64,000 bases of DNA from Flavobacteriales bacterium (GTDB taxonomy: Bacteria > Bacteroidota > Bacteroidia > Flavobacteriales_D > UBA2798), in the NCBI GenBank assembly GCA_019694795.1, contig JAIBBF010000004.1, positions 1 to 64,000 on the forward strand, read 5' to 3'. The notes beneath the pieces are model-generated. The model did no database searches, had not been told where the DNA came from, and was given only the letters and a program-made list of their open reading frames with translations. This document shows, piece by piece, positions 54,983-64,000 of the stretch. The number at the start of each line of letters is the position of its first letter. The first letter of the stretch is position 1. Position numbers and translations under genes: made by a program.

Positions 54983-56428
54983 TTGACGCTCCGTCTCCAG
55001 AATATATTGTTTTTTTCACTGAGTGCATTGTTCGTAGCAGCGCACCTGGTAATGACATATTCCGGTTTTCCATTTCTGGCTTTTCTTCCTTTTGGATTAC
55101 TCGTTGCATTGCTGGCATTGTATCGCCTCGATGTTATTCTTGGAATGGTGGTGGCGTTTACACCGCTTTCAATAAATATCAATGAATTTGATATTGTCGA
55201 TTTCGGACTTTACCTTCCAACCGAACCCTTGTTGTTTGGTGTTTTGATTTTGTTCGTCAGTAAACAAATTTTAGACGGTGGTTATCCTTTAAAACTTCTC
55301 ACGCATCCCGTTTCGTTAATTGTTATTATTCATTTATGCTGGTTGTTTATTACGGCGGTCACCAGTGAAGATATCCTGGTCTCCATGAAATTTTTACTCA
55401 TGCGACTTTGGTTTGTTGTGCCTTTGTTCTTTTTTGGATTAACCATTTTGTCTGATGAATCCACCATTAAAAAAATGTTGTGGTTATATATGATTTCATT
55501 GGTTGTTGTTGTGCTGTACACATTGGTCAATCACGCCATGCATGGTTTCGAAGAAAAACCCGCACACTGGGTGATGTCGCCATTTTACAAAGACCATACT
55601 TCCTATGGTGCATTAGTGGCCATGTATATTCCTGTAGCTGTCGGATTGTATTTTAATAAAAGTTACACGCCAATATTCCGCTCCATTATTTTGTTTTTGG
55701 CCTTAATACTTTTAGTTGGAGTTATTTTTAGTTACACCCGTGCCGCATGGGTGAGTTTAATCGGAGCCTTAGGATTATACTTTGTATTGTTGTTTAAAAT
55801 TCGCTTTTCTACCATTGTGTTTACCATGGTTCTTGGTGCATTTGTATTTTTTGCGTTTTACGATCAAATCATGATGGATCTCGAACGTAACAAGGTGGAA
55901 TCGTCGGATAGCATCGCTGAACACGCAACTTCCATTTCAAATATTTCTTCCGATGCATCCAATCTCGAACGGATAAACCGATGGAACTGCGCGATTCGTA
56001 TGTGGCAGGAACGTCCGGTTTTTGGTTGGGGACCTGGCACCTATCAGTTTTATTATGCCTCCTTTCAGCATTCTTCCGAGCTCACCATTATCTCTACCAA
56101 TTTTGGTGATTTAGGAAATGCACACAGCGAATATTTGGGTCCACTCGCGGAACAGGGATTTCTGGGAATGATCATTATGGTGGCATTTGTATTGGCCATT
56201 TTATTGACCGGAATTAATTTATATCAGCAGCTTCCCGAAGGAGAAACACGATTGCTGGTAGTGGTGATGTTACTCGGTTTAGTGACATATTTCATTCACG
56301 GAATTCTAAATAATTACCTCGATACCGATAAAGCATCCGTTCCGGTTTGGGGATTTAGTGCTGCCATTGTGGCGGTTGACATGAAACGGAGATTGCAGGG
56401 GAAATTAATTGATCCGGATCGACAATAA
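54983..56428 (+). CDS. O-antigen ligase / polymerase family membrane protein
   Basis: The 481-residue protein has about 11-12 membrane helices. TTG at 54983 is the most likely start: an in-frame stop lies at 54974-54976 and the first ATG (residue 23) falls inside the first helix. The Wzy/WaaL signature is FSYTRAAWVSLIGALGLYF and the large periplasmic loop ERINRWNCAIRMWQERPVFG, with GWGPGTYQFYY and GNAHSEYLGPLAEQGFLGM carrying the conserved Arg and His. It joins or polymerises surface glycan at the periplasmic face. Its last 24 bp overlap the convergent PP2C gene. Confidence 0.88.
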   Translation: MTLRLQNILFFSLSALFVAAHLVMTYSGFPFLAFLPFGLLVALLALYRLDVILGMVVAFTPLSININEFDIVDFGLYLPTEPLLFGVLILFVSKQILDGGYPLKLLTHPVSLIVIIHLCWLFITAVTSEDILVSMKFLLMRLWFVVPLFFFGLTILSDESTIKKMLWLYMISLVVVVLYTLVNHAMHGFEEKPAHWVMSPFYKDHTSYGALVAMYIPVAVGLYFNKSYTPIFRSIILFLALILLVGVIFSYTRAAWVSLIGALGLYFVLLFKIRFSTIVFTMVLGAFVFFAFYDQIMMDLERNKVESSDSIAEHATSISNISSDASNLERINRWNCAIRMWQERPVFGWGPGTYQFYYASFQHSSELTIISTNFGDLGNAHSEYLGPLAEQGFLGMIIMVAFVLAILLTGINLYQQLPEGETRLLVVVMLLGLVTYFIHGILNNYLDTDKASVPVWGFSAAIVAVDMKRRLQGKLIDPDRQ

Positions 56429-57646
56429 AGCAGTGTCGTCGGTAAATCCGCTTTTACCTCTGTAGCGGTCCACCTCATTATAAATATCCTCATTTAACTG
56501 CGCCACTTTTTGATGTGAACCATGTTTCTGAATCACTTTAGAAAAACGTTCCATTGAAAAAGCTTCGCCTTGTTCGTTTTCAATTTCAACTAATCCATCC
56601 GTATAACAAACAATAACCGATTTTGGCGTAATGAAAATTTCTTCATCCTCAATTTTCGGGAGATGATCAATCATACCTAAACCGGGACAACCCGCATTGA
56701 GGTATTTAATGTTTTTTCCGTCGAATAAAACAGGGGGATTATGTCCCGCATTGATGTATTTCAATTTGCGGCTGATCTGGTTATAGCGACCAATAAAAAA
56801 CGTAATAAATTTTTCGCCTTTTGCACTGCGAACAACACTCGTGTTTAATTCTTCAATCAGTCGGTTTAAAGGGAAATCGGTGTATTTAATAATGGCGCGG
56901 AAATTGGCCTGGAAATTCGACATCAGCAAAGCAGCGCCAACACCTTTACCCGAAACATCGGCCATGCAAAACACGAATTCATCTTCATTTAATTTTATAA
57001 AATCATAATAATCGCCACCCACGGCCTGATGTGCGAAATATTTTGCTGATACATCCACAAAGTGATTGTGCGGTAAATCATCCGGCAATAGCATGGATTG
57101 CATTTGCGATGCCAATTCTAATTCCTTACGGATACGTGCCTGTTGAATGGCTTCTTTGGCCATGCGTTTGTTTTCGATGGCTACCACAATAATATTGGTC
57201 AGCGTTTGAACGAAAGGCATGTGCTTGATGGTAGGCGAAATTTTCAGTTCATCTTCATTCAAATCGCCAATCAGCAGATAGGCAAGTGGATTTGATTTAT
57301 GAAAAACCGGAATTACCACATCAAAGGTATTGAGCGATTTTTTCGAAGAAGATTCAATTACGGTGATGTCTTTAATCTTCATCAGATCTTTGGTGACATC
57401 AATATCCTTTACCGATCCCTTTACGCCGTATTTCAACATCAGTTTCCATTCGCCATCCAACGTAAACAACATGGCTTTTTGAATTCCGAGTTGTTCGCGC
57501 AATACGTAATTGTAAATCGCCAGTAAATTTTCTACTGAACTGTTCGAATTAATGGCAGCAGTAATTTCAAGCAATTGACTTAGCTTGAAATCTTTCATAT
57601 TTAATTTTTCCTGAAGCTTATTCAGCTTTAAACTGCCATCGCTCAT
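56405..57646 (-). CDS. PP2C-type (SpoIIE/RsbU-like) serine phosphatase with GAF-like sensor
   Basis: The 413-residue protein has a short coiled N-terminus, a GAF-like region (~20-165) and a C-terminal PPM/SpoIIE phosphatase with metal motifs VGGDYYDFIKL, CMADVSGKG, CYTDGLVEIENEQGEAF and GFTDDTALLSI. RsbU-like enzymes dephosphorylate anti-sigma antagonist proteins in partner-switching cascades. No STAS or RsbW-type gene is nearby. The gene lies 3 bp after the lpxD-like gene, so co-transcription is likely, and its end overlaps the ligase-like gene by 24 bp. Confidence 0.9.
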   Translation of the reverse strand: MSDGSLKLNKLQEKLNMKDFKLSQLLEITAAINSNSSVENLLAIYNYVLREQLGIQKAMLFTLDGEWKLMLKYGVKGSVKDIDVTKDLMKIKDITVIESSSKKSLNTFDVVIPVFHKSNPLAYLLIGDLNEDELKISPTIKHMPFVQTLTNIIVVAIENKRMAKEAIQQARIRKELELASQMQSMLLPDDLPHNHFVDVSAKYFAHQAVGGDYYDFIKLNEDEFVFCMADVSGKGVGAALLMSNFQANFRAIIKYTDFPLNRLIEELNTSVVRSAKGEKFITFFIGRYNQISRKLKYINAGHNPPVLFDGKNIKYLNAGCPGLGMIDHLPKIEDEEIFITPKSVIVCYTDGLVEIENEQGEAFSMERFSKVIQKHGSHQKVAQLNEDIYNEVDRYRGKSGFTDDTALLSIRIN

Positions 57647-61168: not shown

Positions 61169-62230
61169 TTAATTTTTCATTTTTATCAGCTTTTCACGGT
61201 TAACGATGGTAATTCTGCTGCCTTTGCTTTCAATGAGTTTTTCTTCTTTAAAATCCGAAAGAGTTCTGATTACGGTTTCAGAGGTCGTACCAACAATATT
61301 GGCAAGGTCATCCCTGGCAATAGCCATACTGAAATTTTCGTCTTTCTCCTTGTTCGAATAATGTTGTTCCAGCATGAGTAATGCTTCCGCAACACGTTTG
61401 CGAACAGAATTATAGGCCAGCTTAATGAGTCGTTCTTCTTTTTCACGGATGTTATCTGAAAGCATATGAATGAATTTCGCTGCTACTTCGCGGTTGGAAT
61501 TTAAAAGAGCAAAGAAATCTTCTTTTGGAATAACACAAATTTCAGCATCCTCCAATGCAACGGCCGAATCATTATAGGGTTCGTCCTCCAACAATGAGAG
61601 GTAACCGAAAAAATCACCTTCATTATAAAGACCCGTAATGAATTCCTTTCCGTCTTCATTATTACGTGAAGCTTTTACTTTTCCTTTAGCAATAAAATAA
61701 ATGCTGTTCGGATAAGCTCCTTCGCTGTAAATGGTTTCTTTTTTCTTGAACGATTTTATTTTACGGTTCTCCGATAATTTTTTTAAATCATCGAGACTTC
61801 TTGCTTCGGTATAGAATTTATCCAGACCCGGAATATCGCGCGAGAATGCATCTTTCAAACGTTCCGATTTTGTAAGGCGGGTTTCAACGGCCGTCAACAA
61901 TTCCATATCATCAAATGGCTTGGTCAGATAATCATCTGCTCCCATACTCATCCCTTTGCGGTAATCTGATTTTTCTGCTTTGGCGGTAAGAAAAATAAAA
62001 GGAATAGAAGCTGTTTGCGTTTCCTTACCCAGCATGTGCAGCACACCATATCCATCCAGTTCAGGCATCATGATGTCGCAAATGATTAAATCGGGCGATT
62101 CGGATTGAGCCAGTTTAACACCTTCTTTTCCATTTGGAGCGGTGAGCACATTATACTTTGCCAGTTCCAGAATCTCAGCTGTATTTTCCCGCATTTCCGG
62201 ATTGTCCTCAATAAGAAGTATTTTTTTCAT
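61169..62230 (-). CDS. Response regulator fused to a Crp/Fnr module
   Basis: The 353-residue protein has a receiver domain (1-~120, acidic pocket IEDNPEMRE, phospho-acceptor D52 in IICDIMMPELDG, K103 region DDYLTKPF), a cyclic-nucleotide-binding beta-roll (~150-245, IYSEGAYPNSIYFIAKGKVK and GDFFGYLSLL) and a Crp-type winged helix (~275-345, RDDLANIVGTTSETVIRTLS). Phosphorylation would control a Crp/Fnr DNA-binding unit. No cysteine cluster for an FNR iron-sulfur centre is seen. It starts 4 bp after the kinase gene. Two TGAC-N4-GTCA palindromes upstream of the operon fit its DNA-binding class. Confidence 0.93.
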   Translation of the reverse strand: MKKILLIEDNPEMRENTAEILELAKYNVLTAPNGKEGVKLAQSESPDLIICDIMMPELDGYGVLHMLGKETQTASIPFIFLTAKAEKSDYRKGMSMGADDYLTKPFDDMELLTAVETRLTKSERLKDAFSRDIPGLDKFYTEARSLDDLKKLSENRKIKSFKKKETIYSEGAYPNSIYFIAKGKVKASRNNEDGKEFITGLYNEGDFFGYLSLLEDEPYNDSAVALEDAEICVIPKEDFFALLNSNREVAAKFIHMLSDNIREKEERLIKLAYNSVRKRVAEALLMLEQHYSNKEKDENFSMAIARDDLANIVGTTSETVIRTLSDFKEEKLIESKGSRITIVNREKLIKMKN

Positions 62231-62234
62231 GCTG

Positions 62235-63500
62235 TTATTGGGTTAATGGTAGTTCAATATAAAAAATAGTTCCTTTGTCCGCTTCGCTCTCAAATCGAAT
62301 CGTTCCTTCCATTAATTCGATGTATTTTTTTACAATGTTCAGCCCCAGTCCCGTACCCTGAATGTTGGTTGCATTTTGAGCTCTGAAAAAACGCGTAAAT
62401 AAATGCGGCTGGTCCTCTTTCGGAATTCCGATACCCTGATCTTTAACGCTTATCAGGATGGTTTTCGCTTTTATTTCGGAGTTGACAACAATTAATGCGT
62501 TTTCCGGCGAGTATTTAATGGCGTTCGAAACGAGGTTGATTAAAACATTACGAAACAATTGCTGGTCGAGAATAATTTCCGTGTATTCTTCTTCGTGATC
62601 GAAGCGGATGCTTTGACCCGTTTTTAAAATTGCTTTTAATTCATCGATGGTTTTTCCAATGAAAGGTTCCAATGGAAATTGCACCGGGTTATTGCGGATG
62701 ATTCCTTCTTCCAGTTTATCCAGCGATAAAAAGTCATTGAGAATTTCAGTCAGATTAGTCACCGCCGAACGAATCCGGTCCACATGTTTATTCCTCTTTT
62801 CACTATCCTCCGGAGCCTCATAACGTGCAATCAGCGAAGCCGAAGATAAAATAGTTCCCAGCGGTGTTCTGAATTCATGCGATGCAGTGGTAACGAACCG
62901 CGATTTTAGAGTGTTGAGTTCTTTTTCTTTTTCAAGCGCTTTCATCACTTCTTTTTTCGATTCTGCCAAATCTTTAAATGCCTGGGCAAGTTCTTCGGTT
63001 CTTTCCTGAACTTTCGTTTCCAATTCAGCATTTAATTTCGATAAAGCCTCCGAGGTTTGCATGAGTCGTTCCGAAGCCATTTTTAACAGTGCTTCTCGCT
63101 GTTTGCGCTCGGTAATATCAATAATAAAGCACATTACAAAATTACCTTCAACTGTGCTGAAATGACTTAAACTGATTTCCACCGGGAATTCAACACCTTC
63201 TTTGGTGATGGCGAATAGATCCAATCCTTTCCCCATCGACTGGGAATGCGGCGCTTTGGTGTAGCCCTCGCGTTGACCAACATGTTTGGCATGAAAGCGC
63301 GTGGGGATTAATTTCTCGATATTTTGATGAAGTAATTCATTCCCGGTATAGCCAAACAATTGCTGAGCCTTGGGGTTTAGCATTACAATCTCGCCTCTAT
63401 CACTCACAACCACAATGCCTTCCGTTGCATTCAGGAACAATGCGTCCAGCATTTCAATATCCTTTTCCATTAGGCTTCTGCGAGATTTTGGTGTTTTCAT
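62235..63500 (-). CDS. PAS-domain sensor histidine kinase
   Basis: ATG 63500 gives 421 residues (MKTPKSRRSLMEKDIEMLDA); an ATG at 63470 is an alternative, favoured if the -7 box at 63503-63510 is used, while a start at 63560 would run through a likely operator. A PAS domain (~14-130, EGIVVVSDRGEIVMLNPKAQ) is followed by a coiled linker (~145-198), the H-box ASHEFRTPLG (H208), and N/G boxes NLVSNAIKYS, DQGIGIP and GTGLGLNIVKKY. The PAS RFHAKHVGQREGY segment resembles FixL-type PAS, but haem binding cannot be decided. It pairs with the Crp/Fnr-fused regulator downstream. Confidence 0.92.
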   Translation of the reverse strand: MKTPKSRRSLMEKDIEMLDALFLNATEGIVVVSDRGEIVMLNPKAQQLFGYTGNELLHQNIEKLIPTRFHAKHVGQREGYTKAPHSQSMGKGLDLFAITKEGVEFPVEISLSHFSTVEGNFVMCFIIDITERKQREALLKMASERLMQTSEALSKLNAELETKVQERTEELAQAFKDLAESKKEVMKALEKEKELNTLKSRFVTTASHEFRTPLGTILSSASLIARYEAPEDSEKRNKHVDRIRSAVTNLTEILNDFLSLDKLEEGIIRNNPVQFPLEPFIGKTIDELKAILKTGQSIRFDHEEEYTEIILDQQLFRNVLINLVSNAIKYSPENALIVVNSEIKAKTILISVKDQGIGIPKEDQPHLFTRFFRAQNATNIQGTGLGLNIVKKYIELMEGTIRFESEADKGTIFYIELPLTQ

Positions 63501-63502
63501 GA

Positions 63503-63510
63503 CAAATATA
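63503..63510 (-). promoter_or_regulatory. -7 box TATATTTG for the kinase operon
   Basis: This exact TAnnTTTG match lies 2 bp before ATG 63500. RNA would begin inside that codon, so either the box is unused or translation starts at ATG 63470. Confidence 0.35.
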
Positions 63511-63553
63511 ATACCGTGCGCGACAAAATATTGAATCGGGTGATTAAAAAATA

Positions 63554-63588
63554 TGACCAAGGTCAGTCTTTTTGTTTGACCACTGTCA
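63554..63588. promoter_or_regulatory. Tandem Crp/Fnr-type sites TGACCAAGGTCA and TGACCACTGTCA
   Basis: Two palindromes of the form TGAC-N4-GTCA (63554-63565 and 63577-63588) share 10 of 12 bases and are spaced 23 bp start to start, about two helical turns. Read as TGA-N6-TCA they have the geometry of Crp, Fnr and FixK boxes. They lie between the kinase/regulator operon and the divergent coiled-coil gene. The second is centred near -41.5 from the expected start of the rightward transcript. Confidence 0.6.
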
Positions 63589-63660
63589 TTCTCATCTTCT
63601 TACGACTTAGCGTTATTTGTAGTGTAAATACATCGAAATACTGACCAAAAAACCTGAATT

Positions 63661-64000
63661 ATGGAAAAGATGAAAACAGAAAAAGCGTATACCCTGCATG
63701 TGGAGCATTCTCAATGGCTCGAAAACTTGAAATTTTATGATGATGAAATCGGAATACTCCGTTCCAGAATCACCGAGGTGGCAGCAAAAAATACTTCACA
63801 GGAAGTAATGAAAGAAATTGAGCATTTTCAAAATCAGTTGATCATTCAGAAAAATGAAATTGACGAGTTGCGTCATGCGATTAAAGACCATGAAAACTAC
63901 ATCGAAAATGCCGTAGCTCAAAATCCGGCTGCTGATCATAAATACGTGAACGATCATGTCGTTGAACGCGATCGTATGGATAGCTTTGAGAAACTGTTTA
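63661..64000 (+). CDS. Coiled-coil protein of unknown function, 3' end outside the window
   Basis: An open frame starts at ATG 63661 and runs off the right edge after 113 codons. It reads MEKMKTEKAYTLHVEHSQWL and continues as charged heptad-like helices (FYDDEIGILRSRITEV, IIQKNEIDELRHAIKDHE), so a long soluble coiled coil is expected. The frame is clean and the codon use matches the neighbours. A second ATG at 63670 is possible. It lies downstream of two Crp/Fnr-type sites and a partial -7 box (TTTG at 63616-63619), so it may be a target of the adjacent regulator. No family is recognised. Confidence 0.78.
   Translation, partial: MEKMKTEKAYTLHVEHSQWLENLKFYDDEIGILRSRITEVAAKNTSQEVMKEIEHFQNQLIIQKNEIDELRHAIKDHENYIENAVAQNPAADHKYVNDHVVERDRMDSFEKLF

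Follow-up and report, generated by a model that had tools for sequence, protein, structure and literature searches.

A receiver–Crp/Fnr fusion, its partner kinase and a tandem operator: a probable low-oxygen-type circuit in Bacteroidia

What does a sensor kinase control when its partner is a response-regulator receiver joined directly to a Crp/Fnr module, and through which DNA sites? The question is raised by a locus at the right-hand end of the window, the whole stretch of 64,000 nucleotides that was analysed from a Flavobacteriales bacterium (positions 1 to 64,000 of contig JAIBBF010000004.1, here C4). The original prediction had recognised a PAS kinase paired with such a fusion protein, which we call RR-CRP, and between them and a divergent coiled-coil gene two TGAC-N4-GTCA palindromes 23 bp apart. 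Pfam bears out the pair (PAS-HisKA-HATPase in the kinase; receiver, cNMP_binding and HTH_Crp_2 in RR-CRP), and both palindromes were found. In our judgement, kinase and RR-CRP probably form a two-component system that carries a low-oxygen-type cue, via tandem sites, to the cbb3 oxidase and to stress genes, a reading that is drawn from sequence. The features of the locus are these.

61169..62230, minus strand: RR-CRP (353 aa); receiver 4-116, cNMP_binding 159-246, HTH_Crp 278-350 (Pfam)
62235..63500, minus strand: sensor kinase, PAS-HisKA-HATPase (Pfam domains); ATG at 63500
63524..63530, minus strand: putative -7 box TATTTTG of the kinase–RR-CRP promoter; end of its TTTG 35.5 bp from the centre of palindrome 1
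63554-63565: palindrome 1, TGACCAAGGTCA; proximal to the kinase operon, distal to the coiled-coil gene
63577-63588: palindrome 2, TGACCACTGTCA; proximal to the coiled-coil gene, distal to the kinase operon
63612..63619, plus strand: putative -7 region GTTATTTG of the rightward promoter; TTTG at 63616-63619, its end exactly 36.5 bp from palindrome 2
63661..64000, continuing on C4 to 64047, plus strand: coiled-coil gene, 128 aa; predicted three-helix bundle

The first codon of the kinase reading frame is a TTG at 63560, within palindrome 1; the start is likely the ATG at 63500 instead. Followed rightward, as had been proposed, the coiled-coil frame is completed beyond the window's edge. An additional half-site, TGACCA, lies at 63642-63647 between the coiled-coil promoter and its ATG. 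Elsewhere in the window, a SpoIIE-type (PP2C) phosphatase gene (56405-57646, minus strand) adjoins an LpxD-like gene.

How might RR-CRP be controlled? Residues E8, D9, D52 and K104 are invariant in 23 orthologs; the acidic pocket, phospho-Asp and Lys mark its N-terminal part as a predicted response-regulator receiver. The protein has just two cysteines, C51 in the receiver and one in the cNMP domain, and inspection of its sequence finds no FNR-type N-terminal Cys cluster for a 4Fe-4S centre. Like CRP/CAP it has the cNMP_binding fold, HTH_Crp and a class II site position; unlike CRP/CAP, it has Tyr210 and Asp221 in place of the cAMP contacts, which we take to be E72 and R82 in CRP numbering. 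Control by cAMP or by an Fe-S cluster was rejected because the required residues are missing. In the Pfam assignment the output is cNMP_binding plus HTH_Crp_2, and a FixJ-type LuxR (GerE) HTH is absent. Nor is RR-CRP a stand-alone, receiver-free protein of the FixK kind, given the receiver at 4-116, although it shares with FixK the lack of an Fe-S Cys cluster and a predicted class II site before the cbb3 operon. Among the 60 best solved chains listed, not one spans both halves of the fusion. The structure model is confident within the domains but not in the linker (125-146) or in how the parts are arranged overall (pTM 0.51).

Of 150 genomes sampled from the order, 63 encode RR-CRP. Sampling across the phylum (198 genomes) places it in 32 of the 49 from class Bacteroidia and in none of the other 149 or so. 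Scanning GTDB genomes returned at least 585 relatives; nearly all of the best 80 bear Bacteroidota labels (Dyadobacter, Pontibacter, Chitinophaga, Reichenbachiella and others), and the two with proteobacterial labels, on contigs under 5 kb, are probably misbinned. These 80 and 40 loci from a genome sample gave 120 orthologous loci, whose neighbours include a kinase match (115 loci), usp (56), ccoNO (40), fixI (32), hemN (15) and the coiled-coil gene (9).

Are the palindromes an operator? Rarity says little: TGAC-N4-GTCA occurs twice in the window against 0.62 expected, and 11 of 100 shuffles reach two. Genome-wide it is found at 13 places, against 31 for the reversed control; with no enrichment, and with many of the matches being coding noise, the scan for single palindromes was rejected as evidence. 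Their significance comes instead from context and from overwhelming conservation among relatives. When all 256 four-base half-sites with spacers of 0-12 were ranked de novo over 107 kinase upstream regions, TGAC-N4-GTCA came first (22 regions versus 0.1 expected) and TGAT-N4-ATCA second (26 versus 1.05); exact TGAY-N4-RTCA is present in 60 of the 107 regions against 2.0 expected. Of the ordered pairs of neighbouring sites in these regions, 53 have a spacing of 22 bp and seven one of 23 bp. Gene by gene, exact TGAY-N4-RTCA stands upstream of ccoNO at 29 of 31 loci, DoxX at 10 of 12, hemN at 10 of 16, the coiled-coil gene at 5 of 10, usp at 43 of 92 and the kinase at 59 of 120, with no more than two expected in each case. 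The negative controls were the sulfite-exporter gene (1/34) and three internal genes of the cco operon: ccoP (0/19), ccoH (0/35) and ccoG (2/33). With the loci grouped at 75% RR-CRP identity (83 groups), the spacing is 22 bp in 64 group-gene combinations and 23 bp in five, and no other spacing from 13 to 45 exceeds six. A search for the exact 22-bp tandem matched 47 of 150 genomes; the reversed-pattern control was positive in one. We conclude that the spacing of the twin site is strictly conserved, 22 bp being the commoner and 23 bp the rarer, and that the operator appears to be the tandem pair, not the single palindrome. The sites before the kinase at about half of the loci support the autoregulation that the original prediction had proposed, and those before the coiled-coil gene support its proposed control.

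What else might be controlled? On C4, to the right of the coiled-coil gene, lie hemN (leftward), a truncated globin, a cupin, a small membrane protein and a sulfite-exporter-like protein, followed by ccoH, ccoG, ccoP, ccoNO, ccoS, the CcoI/FixI copper ATPase, DoxX and Usp; we take these names to be correct on the basis of similarity and general knowledge. A complete cbb3 oxidase cluster thus follows shortly beyond the window's right edge. The ccoS-NO promoter, 9.5 kb from the window palindromes, bears the same kind of tandem site (TGACAACTATCA-N10-TGACCACAGTCA, with TTTG at 36.5), and together with hemN and the globin this strengthens the proposed link to oxygen respiration.

The motif TGACCAnnGTCA occurs five times in the 3.45 Mb genome: twice in the window, once in the ccoS-NO promoter, once before a second Usp gene (C77) and once within a gene. 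Pattern searches of this genome, with up to two mismatches, found the 35.5-36.5 geometry at ccoS-NO, usp, a ModE-like gene, an FAD oxidoreductase, a cytochrome c/nar gene and a 68-aa DUF2892-like gene; some other tandem candidates are inside coding sequence or have no promoter geometry. Further sites near stress or respiration genes, which the circuit as first proposed called for, are thus found before ccoS-NO, two Usp genes and the cytochrome c/nar cluster. At C5:92.3 kb a cytochrome c gene has a degenerate tandem site upstream, with TTTG at 36.5. Two other sets of matches were noted. TGACTTCGGTCA is present three times within 0.6 kb (C103:1672, 1876 and 2275) in a repeated element, and these copies are probably unrelated to the RR-CRP regulator. 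At C39:23979 (L013), where another Crp-family gene ends, TTGACTTAAGTCAA and then TTGATCAAAGTCAA also stand upstream of a TonB-receptor-like gene; they possibly belong to a different Crp/Fnr protein.

Where do the sites lie relative to the promoters? Flavobacterium psychrophilum promoters carry TAnnTTTG at -12 to -5 (PMC9723704). At the orthologous loci the distance from the end of TTTG to the nearest exact site peaks at 36.5 and 58.5 bp; the latter is 36.5 + 22 and belongs to cases in which the proximal copy has degenerated. Given this promoter position of TAnnTTTG, the proximal site is therefore centred at -41.5 and the distal site near -63.5. The rightward promoter had been predicted to have its site near -41.5, and its TTTG stands exactly at the family-wide peak. 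The position of -62 that had been assigned to the leftward promoter did not hold. It assumes a TTTG at 63506-63503 and was rejected, as +1 would fall within the ATG and as the proximal site of relatives is typically some 60-65 bp from the ATG. The TATTTTG at 63530-63524 gives about -41 instead, with a leader of some 19 nt before the ATG at 63500, and the leftward promoter is probably also one with its site there. From this fit, a single pair of sites would serve both divergent genes.

Which protein reads these sites, and to what effect? Crp/Fnr proteins are capable of repression and the proximal site borders the -33 region, so RR-CRP might act as a repressor at these promoters, or its -41 site might block RNA polymerase. 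We consider this very unlikely: at the cbb3, usp, hemN and DoxX promoters the centre is fixed at -41.5, the class II activator position, and a repressor site need not hold such a phase. A different reading assigns the tandem operators mainly to an FNR-type iron-sulfur regulator, with RR-CRP acting elsewhere or as a modulator and the cbb3 linkage reflecting shared FNR regulation. FNR resembles RR-CRP in its operator half-sites and in its oxidase and hemN targets, and differs in having the N-terminal Cys cluster where RR-CRP is controlled through a receiver. FNR-type proteins, with an N-terminal CxxC and a recognition helix nearly the same as that of RR-CRP, adjoin tandem sites and usp and fill the same niche in sister lineages: in families f2, f4 and f5, all 11 genomes with a close FNR-type relative (the matches that define this group), and without RR-CRP, have exact tandem sites, often next to the FNR-type gene. 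Operator conservation alone therefore names no binder. Other f9 genomes have more distant FNR-type proteins and mostly lack exact tandem sites. The genome studied here also encodes a CxxC protein of this type (about C5:75917-76661, or L239:3918-4661), in a nitrate reductase/alternative complex III-like cluster beside a second HemN-like gene, and it may bind the same sites as RR-CRP. Yet exact tandem sites are present in 31 of 63 genomes with RR-CRP (about half of these genomes having none) against 5 of 76 with neither regulator (p about 1e-8), an association that is also significant within families f10 and f9. In f10 an FNR query finds only RR-CRP, and tandem sites occur in 13 of 25 genomes with it versus 1 of 16 without; the binder there is thus likely RR-CRP. 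Three genomes (G004, G012, G032) combine RR-CRP and tandem sites with no FNR-type match, and about half of the loci have sites before the kinase/RR-CRP genes themselves. An operator owned mainly by FNR-type proteins is on this evidence unlikely, and RR-CRP remains the preferred binder. As a separate observation, genomes with an FNR-type protein and without RR-CRP (G005, G016, G023, G029, G040 and G045 in f4; G003 and G014 in f2; G006 and G017 in f5) bear 22-bp tandem operators with usp or CBS-domain genes among the neighbours of the sites.

What signal might the kinase sense? The solved structures nearest to the window PAS domain include FixL and DosP, the best match being another kinase PAS (10jx). 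The proximal haem His of FixL, H200, aligns with His73 of the window kinase and is His in 97% of aligned orthologs. As proof of haem, His73 was rejected as non-diagnostic: other PAS domains that the same profile finds often have His too, in a background set that is small and, since the family's own profile was used to collect it, biased. The distal Arg of FixL, R220, is Leu93 in the window PAS and Arg in about 32% of orthologs, and canonical FixL haem-PAS motifs, distal Arg included, are found at 12 of 120 loci. The absence of this Arg would suit a kinase that, with circuit and operators unchanged, senses NO, general stress, a small ligand or the respiratory chain's redox state; so would the prominence of Usp genes as the most frequent neighbours (56/120) and the variation among partner kinases, some of which have PAS, some FixL-type PAS and some a receiver instead. 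We regard such a non-oxygen signal as a real possibility, though less probable than oxygen, since both the nearby cbb3 oxidase, hemN and globin genes and the FixL-type kinases that partner RR-CRP in several lineages speak for oxygen, and cbb3 genes of F. psychrophilum are strongly up when oxygen is limited (PMC9723704). At one locus (L122) a FixL-type kinase (HD..Y ... IIGIGR) lies directly upstream of RR-CRP, with cco genes, hemN and globin in the locus; at another (L153), which has a 22-bp operator, a tandem FixL-PAS kinase with the same haem-PAS motifs precedes RR-CRP. The partner kinase of the Pontibacter/Rufibacter group carries a receiver where others carry PAS, and genes for a FixL-type kinase and a single-domain regulator come before it, a row that suggests a phosphorelay; the FixL-type PAS at a Rufibacter RR-CRP locus matches FixL at E = 4e-34. 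Rows of this type were seen in L104, L107, L109, L111, L114, L118, L119, L121 and L126. Gene context, then, suggests a haem/oxygen signal.

What role might be played by the divergent coiled-coil protein? Seven residues (H13, W19, E29, E54, H72, E78 and H99) are invariant in ten relatives, and 22-bp tandem operators accompany the gene in three relatives. Structure prediction gives a confident three-helix bundle (pLDDT 88.9); Foldseek returned no match at E <= 0.001, and VIA-align rows, with Z up to 12.5, are generic helical bundles, from which a function cannot be derived. A search of viral contigs for the gene found nothing. At L065:2022-3272 (minus strand) a Usp domain is joined to a helical domain that weakly resembles the protein (E = 0.006). 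There is a hint here that the coiled-coil protein and Usp act together, and a metal- or stress-related role is our guess.

Taken in order, the proposed circuit would run as follows. The kinase would sense a signal in the cytoplasm, most likely a fall in oxygen or a redox/NO cue linked to it, and would phosphorylate the receiver of RR-CRP. The phosphorylated protein would then bind the two TGAY-N4-RTCA palindromes, 22-23 bp from centre to centre, as neighbouring Crp-type dimers and activate from the proximal site, about 41 bp upstream of the start. Besides its own operon and the divergent coiled-coil gene, it would target the cbb3 oxidase operon, Usp, hemN, DoxX and others; the two divergent promoters in the window would share a single pair of sites.

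How does this compare with the rhizobial FixL-FixJ-FixK system, which controls fixNOQP? Sensor kinase, receiver step, Crp/Fnr module, cbb3 target and class II geometry are alike, and some kinases next to RR-CRP bear FixL haem-PAS motifs. Unlike that cascade, RR-CRP joins receiver and Crp/Fnr module, with no LuxR HTH and no separate FixK step, and its system has the 22-23 bp tandem operator and a Bacteroidota -7 promoter. The two-protein version of the Fix logic first proposed for the locus is thus backed by domains, conserved operators, cbb3 linkage and FixL-type partner kinases. A variant of the rhizobial cascade, hFixL-FxkR-FixK, has been described (PMC7888657); word matching in the open-access literature, where absence is weak evidence, found no description of a receiver-Crp fusion with cbb3 control.

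Does the circuit extend to the whole class? The odds seem to us evenly balanced that RR-CRP is a class-wide low-oxygen master regulator of Bacteroidia, working as adjacent dimers on one fixed cis-code (22-23 bp spacing, proximal site at -41.5) with an exchangeable sensor: a plain PAS, a FixL haem-PAS, a receiver-containing kinase accompanied by a separate one of FixL type or, among sister lineages, a CxxC FNR-type protein. Oxygen sensing and the induction of high-affinity oxidases are little described in Bacteroidia, which are abundant in soils, waters and animals. The outcome here is a specific regulator, an exact operator of fixed spacing and position and a short list of targets, testable in the cultured relatives Dyadobacter, Pontibacter and Chitinophaga. 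One regulatory DNA code appears to have been kept while the sensor was swapped.
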